Source: Patescibacteria group bacterium (GTDB taxonomy: Bacteria; Patescibacteriota; Microgenomatia; UBA10105; UBA927). From it: a stretch of DNA of 42,604 bases. The stretch covers positions 1-42,604 of the forward strand of contig JAHJMO010000030.1 of NCBI GenBank assembly GCA_018821245.1, read 5' to 3'. The notes under the pieces are model-generated. The model had not been told where the DNA came from. It searched no databases and saw only the letters and a program-made list of their open reading frames with translations. Positions 7,301 through 28,300 of this stretch are shown piece by piece (within the stretch, counting starts at the first letter, position 1; each line of letters begins with the position of its first letter). The position numbers were made by a program, and so were the translations under genes.

Positions 7301-10300
7301 TGACGTTTACCCCCAGCGGCACGCGAATGCCTGCGCGCACTATTAGCCCGCTTTGTGCATCTGTTATTGTATTCTTATCAAACAATATCCCCGCCTCGGC
7401 AAGCGACTGCAGATTGCTGTCGGAAATTTCATACAGGTACCGTTGAAATTGCGAAACTCCCATATTGCCTAGCAGATATTCCGTTATCAATCCCGGATCC
7501 GCACCGCTTTCTGACCCGCCTGCCTTATCTACCATCTGTCGCAACACACTGGTAAACAAATCTAAGCTCTTGATTGATGCGAATTCAACCGCCAACACCT
7601 GATGACTCTGCATACGCTCATCTTCACTTAGCTCACTGTCTGTTAATTGGATACGTCCGGCTTCATCCAACACGAATACCATTACGGCATGTCCATCTGC
7701 CGTCAGGAAATACCGGTTGAACATGTTTGTCTGATATACTGCGCTTCCCATGACACTGAAGCTGTTTATGACATCTGAAGCTAGATATTTCTGCAGCGAA
7801 CCGAACAATTGCTCCGGTATATTAAAGGTTGCCGGTTCTCTTACATTGACTACGCGGACGCCGGTCACCTGAAAAGTGTCAGTGGTGATAGCTGATAATG
7901 CCTGCTGTATGATAGTAGTATTCCTGCCAAAATTTGTTTGGTCAAAATCCTTGCTGAACGGACCAAGTTGAGGAAAATGATCAAGTAATCCCGTAATGGC
8001 ATAGTAACTTTGTTGAGCATCATAAGTATCATGAACTTGATCAACCAATGTTCCTATCACCTCTTGATCTGCAAATTTCGGACGTATCACTGCCGTAGTT
8101 ATTGAACCGCCGGAGATGCCTGCATCGCGAATTGCCGGCCAATTGCCTGCATCTTTCTTTGGTATGAGTACCGCTTGTCGTACCACTCCTATAGCTCCCA
8201 GTCGTTTGGTAATGATGCCGAATGCCCAATCGCCGGAAACCGGGTATGCTCTTTGACCGGTTATAACACTCTGCCATTGATCTACCGGAACTAATAATAA
8301 TAAATTCTGGGCATCATAATCATTTGATATTATCTCTGTCTGAATAATATTCTGGTTTAATGTTGTTGATTCTCCGCTATGAGCATAGGATCCCAATATC
8401 TGTTCCGCGGTATCCAGCCGGCTGACTGCTTCTGCCTCGCTTGCGACTTTTGCCTGCCCATGCTCGTATACGCTGCCGATTTCAAGACCAAGTGTGGCTG
8501 ATGTTACGACTTCCGAAGGCAACGTATTGAGTAGCGCTAGTTCATTAACGACATGATATGCCAAACCTATTTTATTCACCGGATCATAATCTTTGTTGCA
8601 ACTGTCACAATTCCAGTAAGTTCGTGGGGCACGGTTGGTAATTGTAGTGTATGACGGCCCATACCGCGTAAATTCGTCTTTAATGTATGTCGCTACCCAA
8701 AGTTCATTGGGTACCAAATTCGAGTTCTGACTCATCCAAACAAATTGTCCTTCCCAATCATAATTTCTGGTCATAAACTTCAAAAATAAAGTATAATCCC
8801 ATAGGGCGTAGTCCAGCCGCCCTTCGTTTTTGTTCAATAGATACACCAAAACATCTTCCGAAGAAACCGGTCCGCCTGTCTCTTGATATTCTCGCATGAC
8901 GAAATCTGCAATATCGGCAAAATACATTCTGGTGAATTCGTCTCTTTGAAAATCAATTTGATAATCACCTTGAATACTCAAGCCCAACAACCAAATATGA
9001 TGATTTAATCCACTGGGAATATTGGGATTCCAAAAATCTCTTATAGTTCCCATGATGTACCTGCTTGCGCTGACGGTATCGTACACGCCATTTTGAGAAC
9101 CTATTCCTTCCTGCCACATCCACTCAATGCCTGCACCGTTTTCTGAATTTAACTGCCACCCTCCATCTGTCCTAACGAGTGGTTTTGATAAAAATTCCTG
9201 CCACTTTTCGTTTTCCTGAATATTTTCCTGATAATAAGACAGTTCTTTATATCCCGGATGCTTGTGCCAAACCGGTCGCTGTCCGGTTTCGGCTTCGTAG
9301 CGGGAAATCGCACTGCTTAATATCTCGTCAATCGGACGGTAATCTGAATTGTCGGGCAAACTGCTTAACAATTGGTCTGCCGCCGGCTCTTTGACAAAAA
9401 GATCACGAACGAAGTCAACTGCCTGTAATACTCCCGGTATAATTTCTGCAACGAACGGCACCGCGGTCCGCAGGTCTTTGACTTCATTGACTACCGGAGC
9501 AGCGACACTAATGAGCATTGTTGTTAATACGGCACGGCGTAACGTATTTTGCCAGTTTTTCAGCGGCCGCCGTGCCTCCGTTCGGGCCCGGCGCTCGGTA
9601 CGCCAGTTTTCCAACTTTATAAACAAATTTTTTGTCGGTTGGCGGACTATCCGGAAATAACTTGTCAATAACTCATCGGTATAATTCTCACTGAACACAT
9701 CAGGATTTCTTACATTGTCCAACGCTTCGACAAAGACCTCTGCATCCAAAACCTTAGGATATTTGCCAAGCCATGCTTGGCCAAGTGCAGCCAGTTCGGC
9801 GCGTTGCCTTTTATATATTTCCCCGGATGCTTTATACCTCTCAACAATATTCTTTATCCCGCGCAGTCTTGACAGTTCTAATTGCCGGCGCGTGTCTTGC
9901 TCAAACCGCAGCTGTTCAAAAGTCAGGCCTACCGCAGTGAGAAGTTTGATTGTCGGTAAATCCCGTTCGTAATCTGCAAAAAGCAATCCGCTCTTTTCTG
10001 CTAATTCCGTAGCTAATCCTGATCTTTCCAGGTATTCCAGATAGGGATCTATCAGCTGATTGAGGCTTTCGGTTGACTTGCGCGATTTTAGTCTTTGTCC
10101 AAACGCAATCCCCTGCCTGTCAGGACCGCGACGAAATGCGATATCCAGCTCTTCAAATTGCGTCTGATAATCTTTCGCTGCATCTTCTAATTGAGCGTTA
10201 TACGCTTCAAATTTTTCCGGTGTATTGCCGAATTCCATGCGTAATTGCCGCAGTCTGTCACGCAAATCAAGCAGGCTGACAAGCTTGCCTCCTTCTTCCT

Positions 10301-13300
10301 TTGATTGCCTTGCGGCGATTGCCGCAATCCGTTCTTCAAGATAACGGTCATCAACCGTCTTTTCCGCTTGCTCCACCATTTGCACGATTGCAGCATGCCC
10401 CTCGGGGGATAAACCAACTGCTGCTTGGCTCAATACAACTTCAGGCATCATCGAACCAACGGGTGTAGGTCTATATTCGAGAATATGGAGCTTTTGAAAC
10501 CGATCCAATTCCTTCCTGTCCTGTTCTAATTTTAGCGCTTCTCTCTGCTCTGCTCTTTCGATTCGCCGCACTCTAAACGATTGCCACCATCCTCGCAAGC
10601 GTGCGCCAAGAGTTTGCGGGGCGGGCTGCTCACCTTCTGGCTGAACCATCGTGTTATGCGCTACGATGCCATTGGCAACAAAATTATGCGTGCCCTCTAC
10701 TTCGATGTCATACACCCGCTCGGCAGGCAATTGTTCTATGGATTTGATCTTTTCCCACGCGATTGTTTCTCCGTTCTGCACGGCGATTGCATCACCGGCC
10801 TTGAGATACATCACTTTAACCCACTTACCGTTGATTAAATAATCGCCGTCTGTTACATTGTCATTAATGAGAGTTGATAGTGTATGGTTTTCAATATTCT
10901 CTGATTTATTTGTTAATTTATCGGCTGGATGGCTGGGAGCTGTGATAATTGTTCCTAATTTTTCCAAAGAAAGAGGATGGAAAAAAACTTTCGTATTGAC
11001 CGGCGATGTGATATTTGCTATGCTATCGTTGATAGCGGCTTTTCTTTTAAGAAGGTTGTCATGAAAAAGAAAATTGATATTCTCGAGATTAATGTCAATG
11101 CGATGATCATCTTTGCCTTTCTGCTGATAGGTTTTTTGTTGTTGATTATTTTCGGCAAATAGCCAAAAAATACTATGAGTTTTAACAGTAAAATCGCTCT
11201 CGTTTGTTCTCTGCTTTTTATTATTGGAATCTTGTTTTATCTTGCGTTCTTCAAGTAAATTTTGTTGGACGAGGTACGGATGGTTTTCCGTTGTTTTGAT
11301 TGTTTTCCCGTTTTCGGTCGTCAGCTTGAATACAGGCTGTATTCCCATGTCAAAAAGCCCTTTAATCGTGTGAGGTTCGATTTTACCCGTCTCTTCATTG
11401 AACGAAAGCACCTGTTCACCGCCTTGAATATCCTTGATTTGTTTGTAAAGTACATCATTTTCTGCCACGATTGGCAAAAGCGTCTCTCCGGTCACGCACT
11501 TGGGCTCGACAGAGGATTTTTTGAAGGACTGCCACCGGCTTTGAAGCCATGTCCGCGCTTCCGCCAGATAATTCCTGCCGGTTTGGATGAGATTCAGTTT
11601 CGGAACAGAAAATTCATAGACACGGAGTTCCTCTCCGCCTTGATGAGTTCGCTCTTCTTTTTGGTATTGACGGATTCTCAATAACATTTTTATTCGCTGT
11701 ACAATATTAATCGGCCCTATGTATCCTTTTATGATGCTTTCGCGAGCCTCATTAAGCAATAAATCATCATTGTTATAAAAGAGGAATCTATCGTCAATTT
11801 GTAATCCCTGGTAAATGCGAGAAAACAATGGTTCTTTGAAAAGTTTTACCACGGGTGAATGATTTTTCCATTCGTCAAAGAGTTGCGTAAAAATGCGTTC
11901 ATATAATTCATACAGGCGCGTATCTTCTGTATATCCGGCAGTATAAAAAGGTACGACGTTATGTCTTTCTAATATCGTCATAATGGTGTTTTTTATTACT
12001 CCGATGTTTTTCTTCGGATCCCTCTTAAATGCATCTATCAAAGTATATTTGTTCTTCAAATATACATATGAAAATGTATTTCCGTTTTGTAACGTTCTCC
12101 GTAAATATTCATCGATTTCCTTTTCAGCCTGTACACGTTCTTCGGTTGCCTTATTCAGTACCCACCCGATAATCGCATCATAGAGTCCATCTCTTACGTT
12201 ATCACGGGGATAGTCAACTCCGAGAGATTCTAAAGATTGCTGTGTTGCGCTCTTGTTGGGTTCTTCATAAATGAGCCCATAATGACTCAACCCGTTGGTT
12301 TGAACACGCTGCTCTAGCTCCCGCTGACTCGGGTATTCCCCGCGCTGTATCTGGCTTTTTATGTTCTTCATTCCTTCATTGATACCGACGGCGTAACGCA
12401 TACGTTCCAAAGGATCTTGAAACCCCTGTAAAATATTTATTGTCTCGGTCAAAAATCCCTCTTCCGTTACATGTATCTTTTGATAAATGGAGTAGACCTC
12501 CGGATAAACCGCATCAAAAATACCATCTATCAATCGTTTCAGTTCTGCTGCTCGACCATCATCTGGATATGCAAGATCAAGGATTTGCCATGTTCTTTCG
12601 TTGTATGAATTGTCCAGAAGGTGTATGAACGGAGCAATGATAGAGGTATCTGACTGTTCTATTGCGATTTTTATCTCGTCTTTAGATTTTCCCGTAAGCA
12701 ACTGCTGGTAAATAAATATCCGCGTTTTATCTCTCCCTGAAGGTTCGTGGCCACCCCCTGGAATGATATTTCTTACTGCTTTTTGGAAATCGATATGCGC
12801 AAGATAATCTCTGGCATAGGTTTGAACCTTCGATTTGAACCAATCCGTTGCCTGATTTTTTTCTTCCTTTTTTACTGCCACTTCTTCGTTCCCTTCCGAA
12901 AGAAGCTGAAAGGGCAGGACAAATGTATCCGATTGCGGATGGTACTGTCGCTGTATATCATCGAGTACGCTGTAGAGATCGATAGTGTTGTCTGGCTCGA
13001 GAAGAAAATTTAATAACTCTCTCTGATACGTAAAAAATTCCGGCGTATGGGTCAAAACGTTCTCATCTTCATTTCTCCGAATGTGAGCGTCTTCGTGCGT
13101 CGTGGTGTCCAATATCCTCACAAGCACAGCAGCGATATCGCTGCCGTATATCGTTCCCCCGCTCCGGTCTACCCATTGATCACCGACGCGGTGTCCGCGC
13201 AGTATTGTATCCAACGCATGCAATTCCGAAATGATAGCCGGAATATTCCAGACGAGGTCTGATTGACCGGAATGCGTATAAGCAATCCCTGATATGTGTG

Positions 13301-25300: not shown

Positions 25301-28300
25301 ATGCAATGGTATTGATTTGAGAATTGCTTAATTCATAAAATATCATTTTGGTAAAATCATATTTTTCTTTGAAGAAAATAGTACGGATACTATTTGTCGG
25401 AACGTGTGTATCGATGAAATCCAAAACGCGAAGCATTTGCGAATGCGACAAGTCAGTTCCGTTCGTGTCCCAAAAATCAAATGAGCTGTCATACTCTCCT
25501 TTCATGTTCACCAAAAATATTAGTTTTCGTGCCGTAGACAATCCGTCGCGAAACGATGCGTGATCATCAACGATAAAATCGCAGTAGTCCTGCATGCTGG
25601 AAAAGTATTCTTCGCCGATGCCCTTCTTCTGCAATGTCTTCTGAAGCGACTTGATTGTTGCTTTATACGGATAGTAATAAACCATTTCCATAATAAATCG
25701 CGCCAGAATACGAGGTGTTTTTATCAGTGCCGTTTTTGTGTCTAAACCTCTTGTTTGATCAATAAAATAATAAGGAAGTTTCCTTCGGAGTGACGTTACT
25801 AGTGATGTCATTAACTTATTCCATGGGGATTGGTTCGTTTGAGGTTTTTGAAGTGTTTCTACTGCACCAAGTATCGTGGCATCTATCGCTGTTTGTTCCT
25901 CCTCTGTCGGGCTGCGACCAGCCATGAGCGCTTTATATTTCTCTGACTTTTGAACAAGTTCAATAAAATCCTCTATCCGCTCCGGTTTAGTAATCTCACT
26001 TACCGCCTGTGCATCCCATACTTCCTGTACAATTGCCGGAAGTTGGGTAGTATCTACCGTTGTTTGTGTCTTTTCTGACCCACTCAATCCCTCATTCTCC
26101 GCCAGCTGGCGGATACGGGCTGGCAGGCTATTTCGTAGTTCTTGCCCTGAGCGAAGTCGAAGGGCATCAAACAGTACAGGAAGCGTACCTCTAGTACGGG
26201 TCTCCGGCCACCATTTGTAAATGGTAGCGTTCGCAAGGTTCTCAAACCACTGCGCCGGACCGGAACCGATAAGGTCGTTCTTTTTCGGCGCAACGGGCGC
26301 GACAGGCTGTTGTTTCGGTATCGCTGCTAATCTCTTATCTTCTACAATATTTCCCACCTCATCGCGAAGAACTTGATAATTTTCTGTGAGGCTTAAATCT
26401 TCGTCATATACGAACGGATCCCCCTTTTTCCCTTCTTCTGTCTGGTTATATTCAGAGATTAACGTAAACAGTTGACGTTTTGCCTCTTGTGGGCTTTGCA
26501 CAATGACCGGCTCGATAGCTGTTATTCTCGCCAAAAACGCGGTATCTACTACGGAATTTCCCGGTTTTGCCATCGCCCCATCCGGGGCGGGTTGTTTTAT
26601 TGCCGTGTTGTGTGCCACGATTCCGTTGCCAAGAAATGTATGTGTGCCTTCAACCTCGATATCATAGACCTGTTCGCGGCTGCTTTTTTTGATAGAGATA
26701 ATTTCTTCAAATGCTAATTTTCCGTCGTTATCTACTGTCGCAATCTCGGTCTTTGGTTTTAGAAAACGTATCTTCGTCCAAGTATTATCGTAAAATTTTC
26801 CTATTATTTGCGGTGAGGCAACGCCATATCTTGACATTTCATCAATAAACATGATATAAAGACGCTGGAGGGCTTGACGTTGAAGGGTATCCACTCCCTG
26901 ACGTCGGTGAGATAGCCGAGAGACAGCGTCCCCCTCTTTTTTGTGGATTCCGCCGTCTGCCCCTAACCAGACAACCGAATAAAAATGTTTAATTCCGCCG
27001 TTTATTGACCGGATAACTACTCTCACCTTGATCCCGTCTACAACTTCAGTTATTGCCCAATAGTCTGTTTTTTCTCCATTTGCTGTAAGAGATTCCCGCT
27101 GTGTGACCGTTTTTGCCTGACGAATCGCTTGCTCTACTTTCGGCAGCGCCATGATGCGAGACATAACATTAAGTTTGCTTTTCTTTTCATGCACAATATG
27201 TTCGAATCCTTCCCTGCTGAATTCTACCCATGATTTCATGGCTGGTGTTTTAATGCGGCGCCCAGCTAGCAACTGGAAATAAAATCTACGACCATAAGAT
27301 TCTACAGTTTCGAATGTTAAATCATAAAGAAAATTACTGTCTACATTTTTGGTTTGACGCACTAAATACGGATGTTCGCTGGTCGTTTTGATGGACTTTC
27401 CGGAAGTCGTGGTCAATTCCCAAACCGTCTGCACGCCTTTTTTGAGCAATTTATTGACCCGCGCAACTGCAAATCGTCCGGTCGCTTCGTCCAGCGACAC
27501 TATTTCATCGCCCGGCTTAATTTCGTCAATGCGTACGTCTTCAAAGTCGTCTGGCTCCCAGCCGCCTGATACTTTTGACTTTTGACTTTTGACTTTTGAC
27601 TTCCTGCGTCTTCGCAGGAGCGTATCTCCGGTCACACACTCGGCGATCGGCAGAGTGCTTTCAACCGGCGCCGCGCCTCTCTCCGGTGCTTTTTGTCCTG
27701 GTTCAACCGCCGCGGCACCCGGAGCGGGAGGTTCTTGGTCAGAAGGATTCGGACTGTAATTATCTGGATATGCAATCTTTAGCGGATTGGCAATAACTCC
27801 ATTAAAAATGGTATTTGGTAGAATGTCCAACGTTTTTCCTAATTTTATTTTCATCGCATTTCTTTTTATGTCTCGAAGCGCCTTTCCGCCATTGACCTCG
27901 CGGATGAGAGAGAAAGCCAACGTCGGATCCATTCGAACTGCTTCAAGAAATGCTTGTGCATCCTCATTTGGCATCACAAAAATAAAATGTGTATCCAGTG
28001 GACGGCCGCCAGCATACTCGAAAGAAGAAGTGCGAACAACAACGGCTGTCAAATTTTTTGCTTCACTCTCATCAAGTTTCATCTTAGTCATAGCGTCAGA
28101 GTAAGAAAGAGGAATAAGGGTCATAGCAGAAAATCCTTCATACATTAATCCATCGTATTGTTCAAAAACTCCTTGAGTAAGCGATGTCAGATCAAAAAGA
28201 TTTTGTCGTATTTTCCCCTCTCTCCCTGTTCGAACAAAACCACCGTCGTTGTATTGGGTAATAAGTTCATATGTAACGTTTTCAGCTAATTGTTTTATAT

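Follow-up and report, generated by a model that had tools for sequence, protein, structure and literature searches.

An antisense operon of predicted small membrane proteins in an intein loop of a Patescibacteria group bacterium and its possible toxin-antitoxin-like role

Split or fractured inteins harbour a free-standing endonuclease gene between their halves, their own ORF being broken and made in two pieces. Type I toxin-antitoxin (TA) systems such as Hok, TisB and Ldr consist of a toxin gene and an antisense RNA, while MqsR and MqsA are a soluble RNase and a repressor. The DUF433 and DUF5615 proteins are soluble and not membrane proteins. In the mqsRA operon the toxin gene comes first and the promoters of the antitoxin gene are located inside it (PMC6918082). 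According to PMC6801210, endonuclease domains occupy one conserved site of inteins, and large inserts elsewhere have been argued to be restricted. A full-text literature search, which covered few subscription journals, provided no precedent for inteins with TA pairs or other antisense genes inside them among the titles and abstract openings listed.

The window, by which we mean the whole stretch of DNA analysed (42,604 nucleotides), corresponds to an entire contig (G000:C33) within the 1.08-Mb genome of a Patescibacteria group bacterium. Nearly the entire window is covered by a single ORF on the minus strand, at least 13,945 aa long, with two inteins inside. The second of these carries an insert between the two parts of its Hint domain, which is predicted to encode the small membrane proteins A, B and C on the opposite strand. 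The features of this region are as follows:

10653..11498, minus strand: intein 2 of the giant ORF, 282 aa, Pfam Intein_splicing (PF14890, 3.9e-22)
11268..11498, minus strand: N-terminal Hint part of intein 2 (profile match 2.7e-29)
10650..10832, minus strand: C-terminal Hint part of intein 2, which includes the WVKV..G..IAV block (profile match 1.1e-28)
10833..11267, no strand assigned: insert separating the Hint parts, 435 bp by profile edges, Asn/Lys/Gln-rich and open in the giant frame
10831..10859, plus strand: promoter-like site of gene A, TTGATT-17-TACATT, score 9.3 (cut-off 8.5), -10 ending 7 nt before the ATG (leaderless)
10867-11064, plus strand: gene A, 65 codons (65 aa), predicted two-helix membrane hairpin
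10996..11024, plus strand: promoter-like site of gene B within gene A, TTGACC-17-TATGCT, extended -10 (TG), 36 nt before B, p 0.10
11050-11055, plus strand: Shine-Dalgarno sequence AGAAGG of B, read from the sequence
11061-11162, plus strand: gene B, 33 codons (33 aa), a single membrane span, start overlapping the end of A (ATGA)
11175-11258, plus strand: gene C, 27 codons (27 aa), one span, starting 12 bases past B
11276..11291, plus strand: weak terminator-like hairpin after C, inside the DNA of the intein N-part (two such hairpins in the region vs 0.9 expected)

The gene sizes, the ATGA overlap, the 12-base spacing between B and C and the AGAAGG motif are all as a first-pass annotation of the window sequence had stated. 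Its observation that the codons of B and C match the phase of the minus-strand codons of the giant ORF was likewise confirmed, gene A being out of phase. It had further placed the insert where an endonuclease would sit, which does not hold: the insert comes after the HPY block and before the WVKV..G..IAV block, whereas in inteins of the other kind the endonuclease-like inserts are, by eye, located after the second of these blocks. The AlphaFold2 model of A (pLDDT 91.9) comprises two helices (5-32 and 38-64). The product of gene C resembles the B consensus (..YLAFFK), although the homology is weak with 27% identity to B and 23% in a second comparison.

According to its translation intein 2 has retained the catalytic residues, namely the first Cys, a TENH motif (TxxH), the terminal HN and Thr at +1, which we take to fulfil the roles of the motifs Cys1, TxxH, HN and Cys/Ser/Thr +1. 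Since these residues are intact, the loop resulting from the minus-strand translation of the insert would presumably be removed from the giant protein by splicing. A Pfam scan detected no nuclease family in the frame of intein 2; what the insert encodes is A-B-C on the opposite strand.

The proposal that the intein reads through a foreign insert of about 400 bp was supported by several lines of evidence. Free-standing copies of A and B were found in the same order, so that homologues of both genes, whose absence had been named as a possible refutation, do exist outside this intein. In four inteins of the same kind as intein 2, only 3 to 75 bp separate the Hint parts. The sequence variation tracks the codons of A and B and not the giant frame, and a protein sequence conserved in the giant frame, another refuting observation proposed, was looked for in the related inteins and none was conserved. 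A search with the joined exteins retrieved no orthologue from the 24 family genomes and only a weak partial match in G014; the absence of the insert is therefore documented for related inteins and not for the intein 2 site. Taken together, the locus is almost certainly a real operon inserted antisense into the intein and read through by the host frame. There is good support for insertion and coding; transcription, splicing and addiction we infer.

Homologues of A were detected in 6/24 family genomes at E<=0.1 and in 8/27 order genomes at 0.01, the window's own genome included. At the class level 70 of the 373 genomes contained matches at 0.001 (144 hits), a count that takes in the window's own genome and the seed genomes, and with up to seven copies per genome this compact operon of two genes is both patchy and multicopy. 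A scan of named genomes revealed 18 loci in genomes titled Gottesman-, Collier-, Woese-, Davies-, Roizman-, Amesbacteria or Microgenomates, and a search of the phylum (379 genomes) provided A matches in 11 genomes outside the class, with no Hint halves in those out-of-class loci that were read. Our set of 112 distinct A loci is not identical with all 144 class hits: it also includes loci from the named-genome scan as well as five weak intein hits taken because they overlap inteins, many other weak hits having been left out. In 104 of the 112 loci a short hydrophobic ORF (B) follows A, as compared to 186/2050 (9%) after random stops under the same rule, which also identified a third short hydrophobic ORF after B in 39 loci. 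The ATGA overlap of A and B is the commonest arrangement (59 loci), and the window itself has an A homologue with a hydrophobic B directly after it.

Comparisons of A with Pfam, NCBIfam and PHROGs resulted in weak matches only (for 50 A members, single Pfam/NCBIfam matches of 0.002-0.009), none of the cassette genes matched a known toxin or antitoxin, and a Foldseek search of the A hairpin model against the PDB produced no match at E<=0.001. Judged by their sequences, A and B represent an undescribed conserved operon family, A-B(-C). A phage origin was considered as well and rejected, as a scan of viral_contigs with one query confirmed 0 of 32 pattern matches. One free A-B copy (L034, G006:C10, ~8508-8696) lies between near-identical direct repeats of ~46 bp (AGTCGCGGCGTTGTCTTGTTTTCCGG..., recognised by eye), possibly a trace of mobility, and another locus (L139, G266:C9, 1-3530) holds four A copies on one strand within 3.5 kb, of which the first is truncated.

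Twelve of the 112 A copies lie between the two Hint parts of an intein encoded on the opposite strand, and none between Hint parts on the same strand. A thirteenth copy (L130:3111) resides in the N-terminal loop of an intein whose main loop also contains a cassette. All 13 belong to the 144 class hits and all are antisense; as the selective taking of weak hits makes 13/112 an overstatement of the intein share, at least 13/144 is the safer figure. The intein cassettes originate from eight genomes with seven family codes (G000, G028, G039, G064, G193, G239, G240 and G351). Further antisense A copies were observed in long ORFs in which Hint parts were not detected (L024, L025, L026, L146 and the truncated L178); as L025 is located at the end of a contig, it may still belong to an intein. 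L025 (G008:C28) and L026 (G009:C65) are relatives of the giant gene, and A in L026 comes after two further small hydrophobic ORFs.

The antisense frame in the register of B is open across A-B in 12/12 intein units with B vs 5/92 other units (p 4e-12), and even when any antisense frame is allowed, only 6/92 of the non-intein units have an open one. The phase of the open frame is identical in all 12 intein units. An open frame was no condition of finding intein copies, since one A without B (L130:3587) was detected inside an intein with a broken host frame; this intein (G028:C8, 2300-3962) carries two A cassettes in separate loops, the frame being broken at the second. The avoidance of TTA, CTA and TCA noticed by the first-pass annotation recurs in the B genes of the intein copies (0/423 codons vs 204/3398 in other copies), but it is another way of stating that the host frame is open and adds no independent support.

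For seven intein-borne pairs the differences per codon position amounted to 0.33/0.21/0.51 in A and 0.27/0.19/0.51 in B (six pairs), and for seven free pairs to 0.37/0.23/0.50 and 0.31/0.26/0.53, respectively; the pairs were chosen by hand, and L048, an intein copy, was left out of the free pairs. The third codon positions of A and B are thus the most variable. As the third positions of B coincide with first positions in the host codons, the host frame seems to be constrained mainly to stay open. On the poorly resolved A+B tree (105 units) the intein label changes 10 times, at least three of these changes being forced by starred branches, and it is somewhat clustered (13/500 shuffles equally low), indicating repeated entry into or exit from inteins with some clustering of kin.

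The promoter-like sites were analysed with E. coli matrix values, so that absolute scores are rough. The TTGACC-17-TATGCT promoter of the first-pass annotation is present in the window, including the TG before the -10. Since the region holds four promoter-like sites on both strands vs 1.8 (sd 1.7) in shuffles, this site is by itself weak evidence (p 0.10), and the separate site of A had been missed. The latter matches 8/12 consensus bases and fell below the threshold of a second promoter scan; both sites occupy the positions usual in the family.

For 93 A-B units the highest-scoring sigma70-like site near the end of A was compared with synonymous-codon shuffles: 31 units reached p<=0.05 and 13 units p<=0.01, as compared to 3/93 and 0 in a control window farther upstream, and p exceeded 0.5 in 15/93 units. 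The spacing is 17 nt in 71/93 best sites and in all 31 sites at p<=0.05, with a score that favours this spacing. In 30 of the 31 significant units the -10 ends 27-51 nt before B, and many of the sites read TTGACA-17-TATAxT. Of the seven intein copies tested, four reached p<=0.05, two lay at 0.05-0.10 and one (L128:1275) at 0.84. Upstream of A an above-threshold site was detected in 52/91 units vs 20.3 in mononucleotide shuffles, and in 35 of these 52 the distance from the end of the -10 to the start codon is 5-9 nt (1.4 in the control). Shine-Dalgarno-like sequences precede A in 4/91 and B in 50/91 units. From the position of the A site and these counts, A is expected to be translated from a leaderless mRNA and B from a separate mRNA with a leader. 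Across the family the operon apparently has two promoters, one before A and a second one for B inside the codons of A; the insert is no isolated case, and A seemingly starts from a leaderless promoter of its own.

Related inteins harbour other cargo. The intein most similar to intein 2 among the 84 compared is a paralogue in the same genome (L028, G000:C29, 1298-2440; 71% identity over the Hint halves), which contains antisense genes for a DUF433 (3e-18) and a DUF5615 protein (3.2e-15) in the same loop as the cassette. The same antisense pair occurs in the same loop of the L125 intein of G064 (DUF433 1.4e-15, DUF5615 1.7e-22). We take both to be TA pairs. A third antisense pair, after WxKV, was found in the second intein of L132; one gene is tentatively RelE-like (Rv2866, E 0.015; no Pfam match at 0.1). 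Cargo on the sense strand of the same intein kind comprises an NYN domain (1.6e-27, an L203 intein), a DUF3800 domain (6.5e-7, L106) and LPD3-like domains below the curated cut-off. In the window, intein 1 (26607-27638, minus strand) contains a sense-strand LPD3/EndoU-like domain, also below the cut-off, and inserts similar to it are found in the inteins L204:2611 and, by eye, L203:3873. Another recurring sense cargo, starting approximately with FEVDQS.RIE, was recognised by eye in seven inteins (including L126, L127, L203, L207 and L208); the two members scanned (L126, L208) had no credible Pfam match. In L031 (G002:C43) the intein halves are separated by 2.4 kb with a separate 492-aa ORF, the intein frame being broken.

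Among the 13 cassette inteins the insert lies between the HPY and WxKV blocks in seven, including the window, and after WxKV, the usual place of endonuclease domains, in four, two remaining unplaced by our rule; thus, in 7/11 placed inteins the cassette is off the endonuclease site. Those with the insert before WxKV look like exceptions to the site restriction argued for in PMC6801210.

Our proposal is that a small mobile A-B(-C) operon entered the loop of intein 2 in antisense orientation. Transcription of the plus strand would give rise to the tiny membrane proteins, and translation of the minus strand to a disposable intein loop that would be cut from the giant protein by splicing. A may act as a toxic membrane hairpin that is produced in small amounts and B, together with C, as an antidote produced in excess; such an addiction module would make loss of the intein costly and could replace the homing endonuclease. 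For this complete scenario, a horizontally moving operon in the intein loop that is read through, spliced away and TA-like, the balance tips slightly in favour. The TA-like part is proposed on the basis of the loop and strand shared with the TA pairs, the patchy multicopy spread and the mqsRA-like promoter design, whereas the missing toxin homology, the ordinary neighbours of the free copies and the antisense copies outside detected inteins count against it. We regard the toxin/antidote function itself as evenly poised, and which of A and B is toxic is a guess. The broader idea of an addictive class of inteins in Microgenomates, i.e., endonuclease-free inteins of giant and repeat proteins kept by antisense, self-promoted TA-like modules, one of them the new membrane module, with the other strand of the same DNA serving as a disposable spliced-out loop, is put forward tentatively and falls somewhat short of an even chance. 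The cassette may represent a new kind of self-preserving genetic passenger.

Alternatively, A-B(-C) may be a mobile or accessory operon with some role in the cell, which inserts anywhere harmless and is useless to the intein. The antisense copies in four long ORFs without detected Hint parts (L024, L025, L026, L146) are consistent with such a passive landing. So are the free copies, which adjoin ordinary genes: TA-type neighbours were few and not clearly found among the 117/169 neighbour ORFs scanned, the neighbours being mostly single housekeeping families, as judged among the 25 of 97 families listed. Furthermore, cassettes were detected at E<0.01 in 12/36 inteins of giant or repeat proteins vs 0/48 others (p 1e-5) and at E<0.1 in 13/36 vs 1/48 (L135 with a truncated A; L212; p 4e-5), and such hosts may tolerate inserts; the 84 inteins compared were taken from hit lists, partly for their A hits, and were split by a motif rule. 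However, at least 13 of the 144 hits fall into a tiny fraction of the genome. Assuming a rough intein share of 0.1%, which is our own estimate, the chance of 12/110 would be ~3e-21. Moreover, the loops of sister inteins hold TA pairs, NYN and other domains, which gives the cassette the look of preferred cargo. We therefore rate a passive landing as unlikely, though it deserves to be taken seriously.

Size and topology of the proteins would also fit a secreted-peptide or holin-like system, in which B and C would act on the membranes of other cells and A would confer immunity, or A and B would form a holin pair. One of 50 A members had a weak Holin_9 match (E 0.0094), but no relative was confirmed in viral_contigs with the one query used and no lysis family appeared among the 25 of 97 neighbour families listed, so that this scenario seems improbable. 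Control of the giant gene by the antisense transcript or by the intein loop would account for promoter-like sites antisense to that gene; as most of the 112 operon loci are not antisense to a long gene and the variation follows the protein reading of A-B, such host regulation is very improbable. Finally, the antisense of Asn/Lys/Gln-rich codons is hydrophobic by the genetic code, but chance shadow ORFs opposite an Asn/Lys-rich loop are ruled out, for practical purposes, by the independent free-standing homologues of A and B in the same order and by the third-position variation of their codons.

If the proposed addiction module is real, inteins would carry antisense genes other than endonucleases, often in a Hint loop different from the endonuclease site. 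The locus would furthermore be a natural case of double-strand coding, with conserved proteins encoded on one strand and a frame on the other that need only stay open. The ultra-small bacteria would possess a common, undescribed membrane operon, whose two-promoter design gives testable predictions.

To our knowledge, a splicing domain that repeatedly harbours antisense cargo other than an endonuclease, seemingly with promoters of its own, matches no known kind of element. The A-B products share with the type I TA membrane peptides (Hok, TisB, Ldr) that they are small and hydrophobic, but the cassette consists of two or three conserved protein genes with two promoter-like sites on one strand. 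Its predicted promoter layout resembles that of mqsRA, where the first gene has its own promoter and the second is driven from promoters within the first, whereas A and B are tiny membrane proteins unrelated to MqsR and MqsA. Like the gene between the halves of split inteins it is an independent gene between Hint halves, yet the cassette inteins keep their frame open through it. The DUF433/DUF5615 pairs likewise lie antisense in this loop in two sister inteins, of which one belongs to the window's genome, but encode soluble proteins instead of membrane proteins. As in homing-endonuclease inteins, the cargo is nested in the Hint splicing domain and would be removed along with it; unlike there, it lies on the opposite strand, seemingly has its own promoters, includes no endonuclease and, in the window, sits before the second block.
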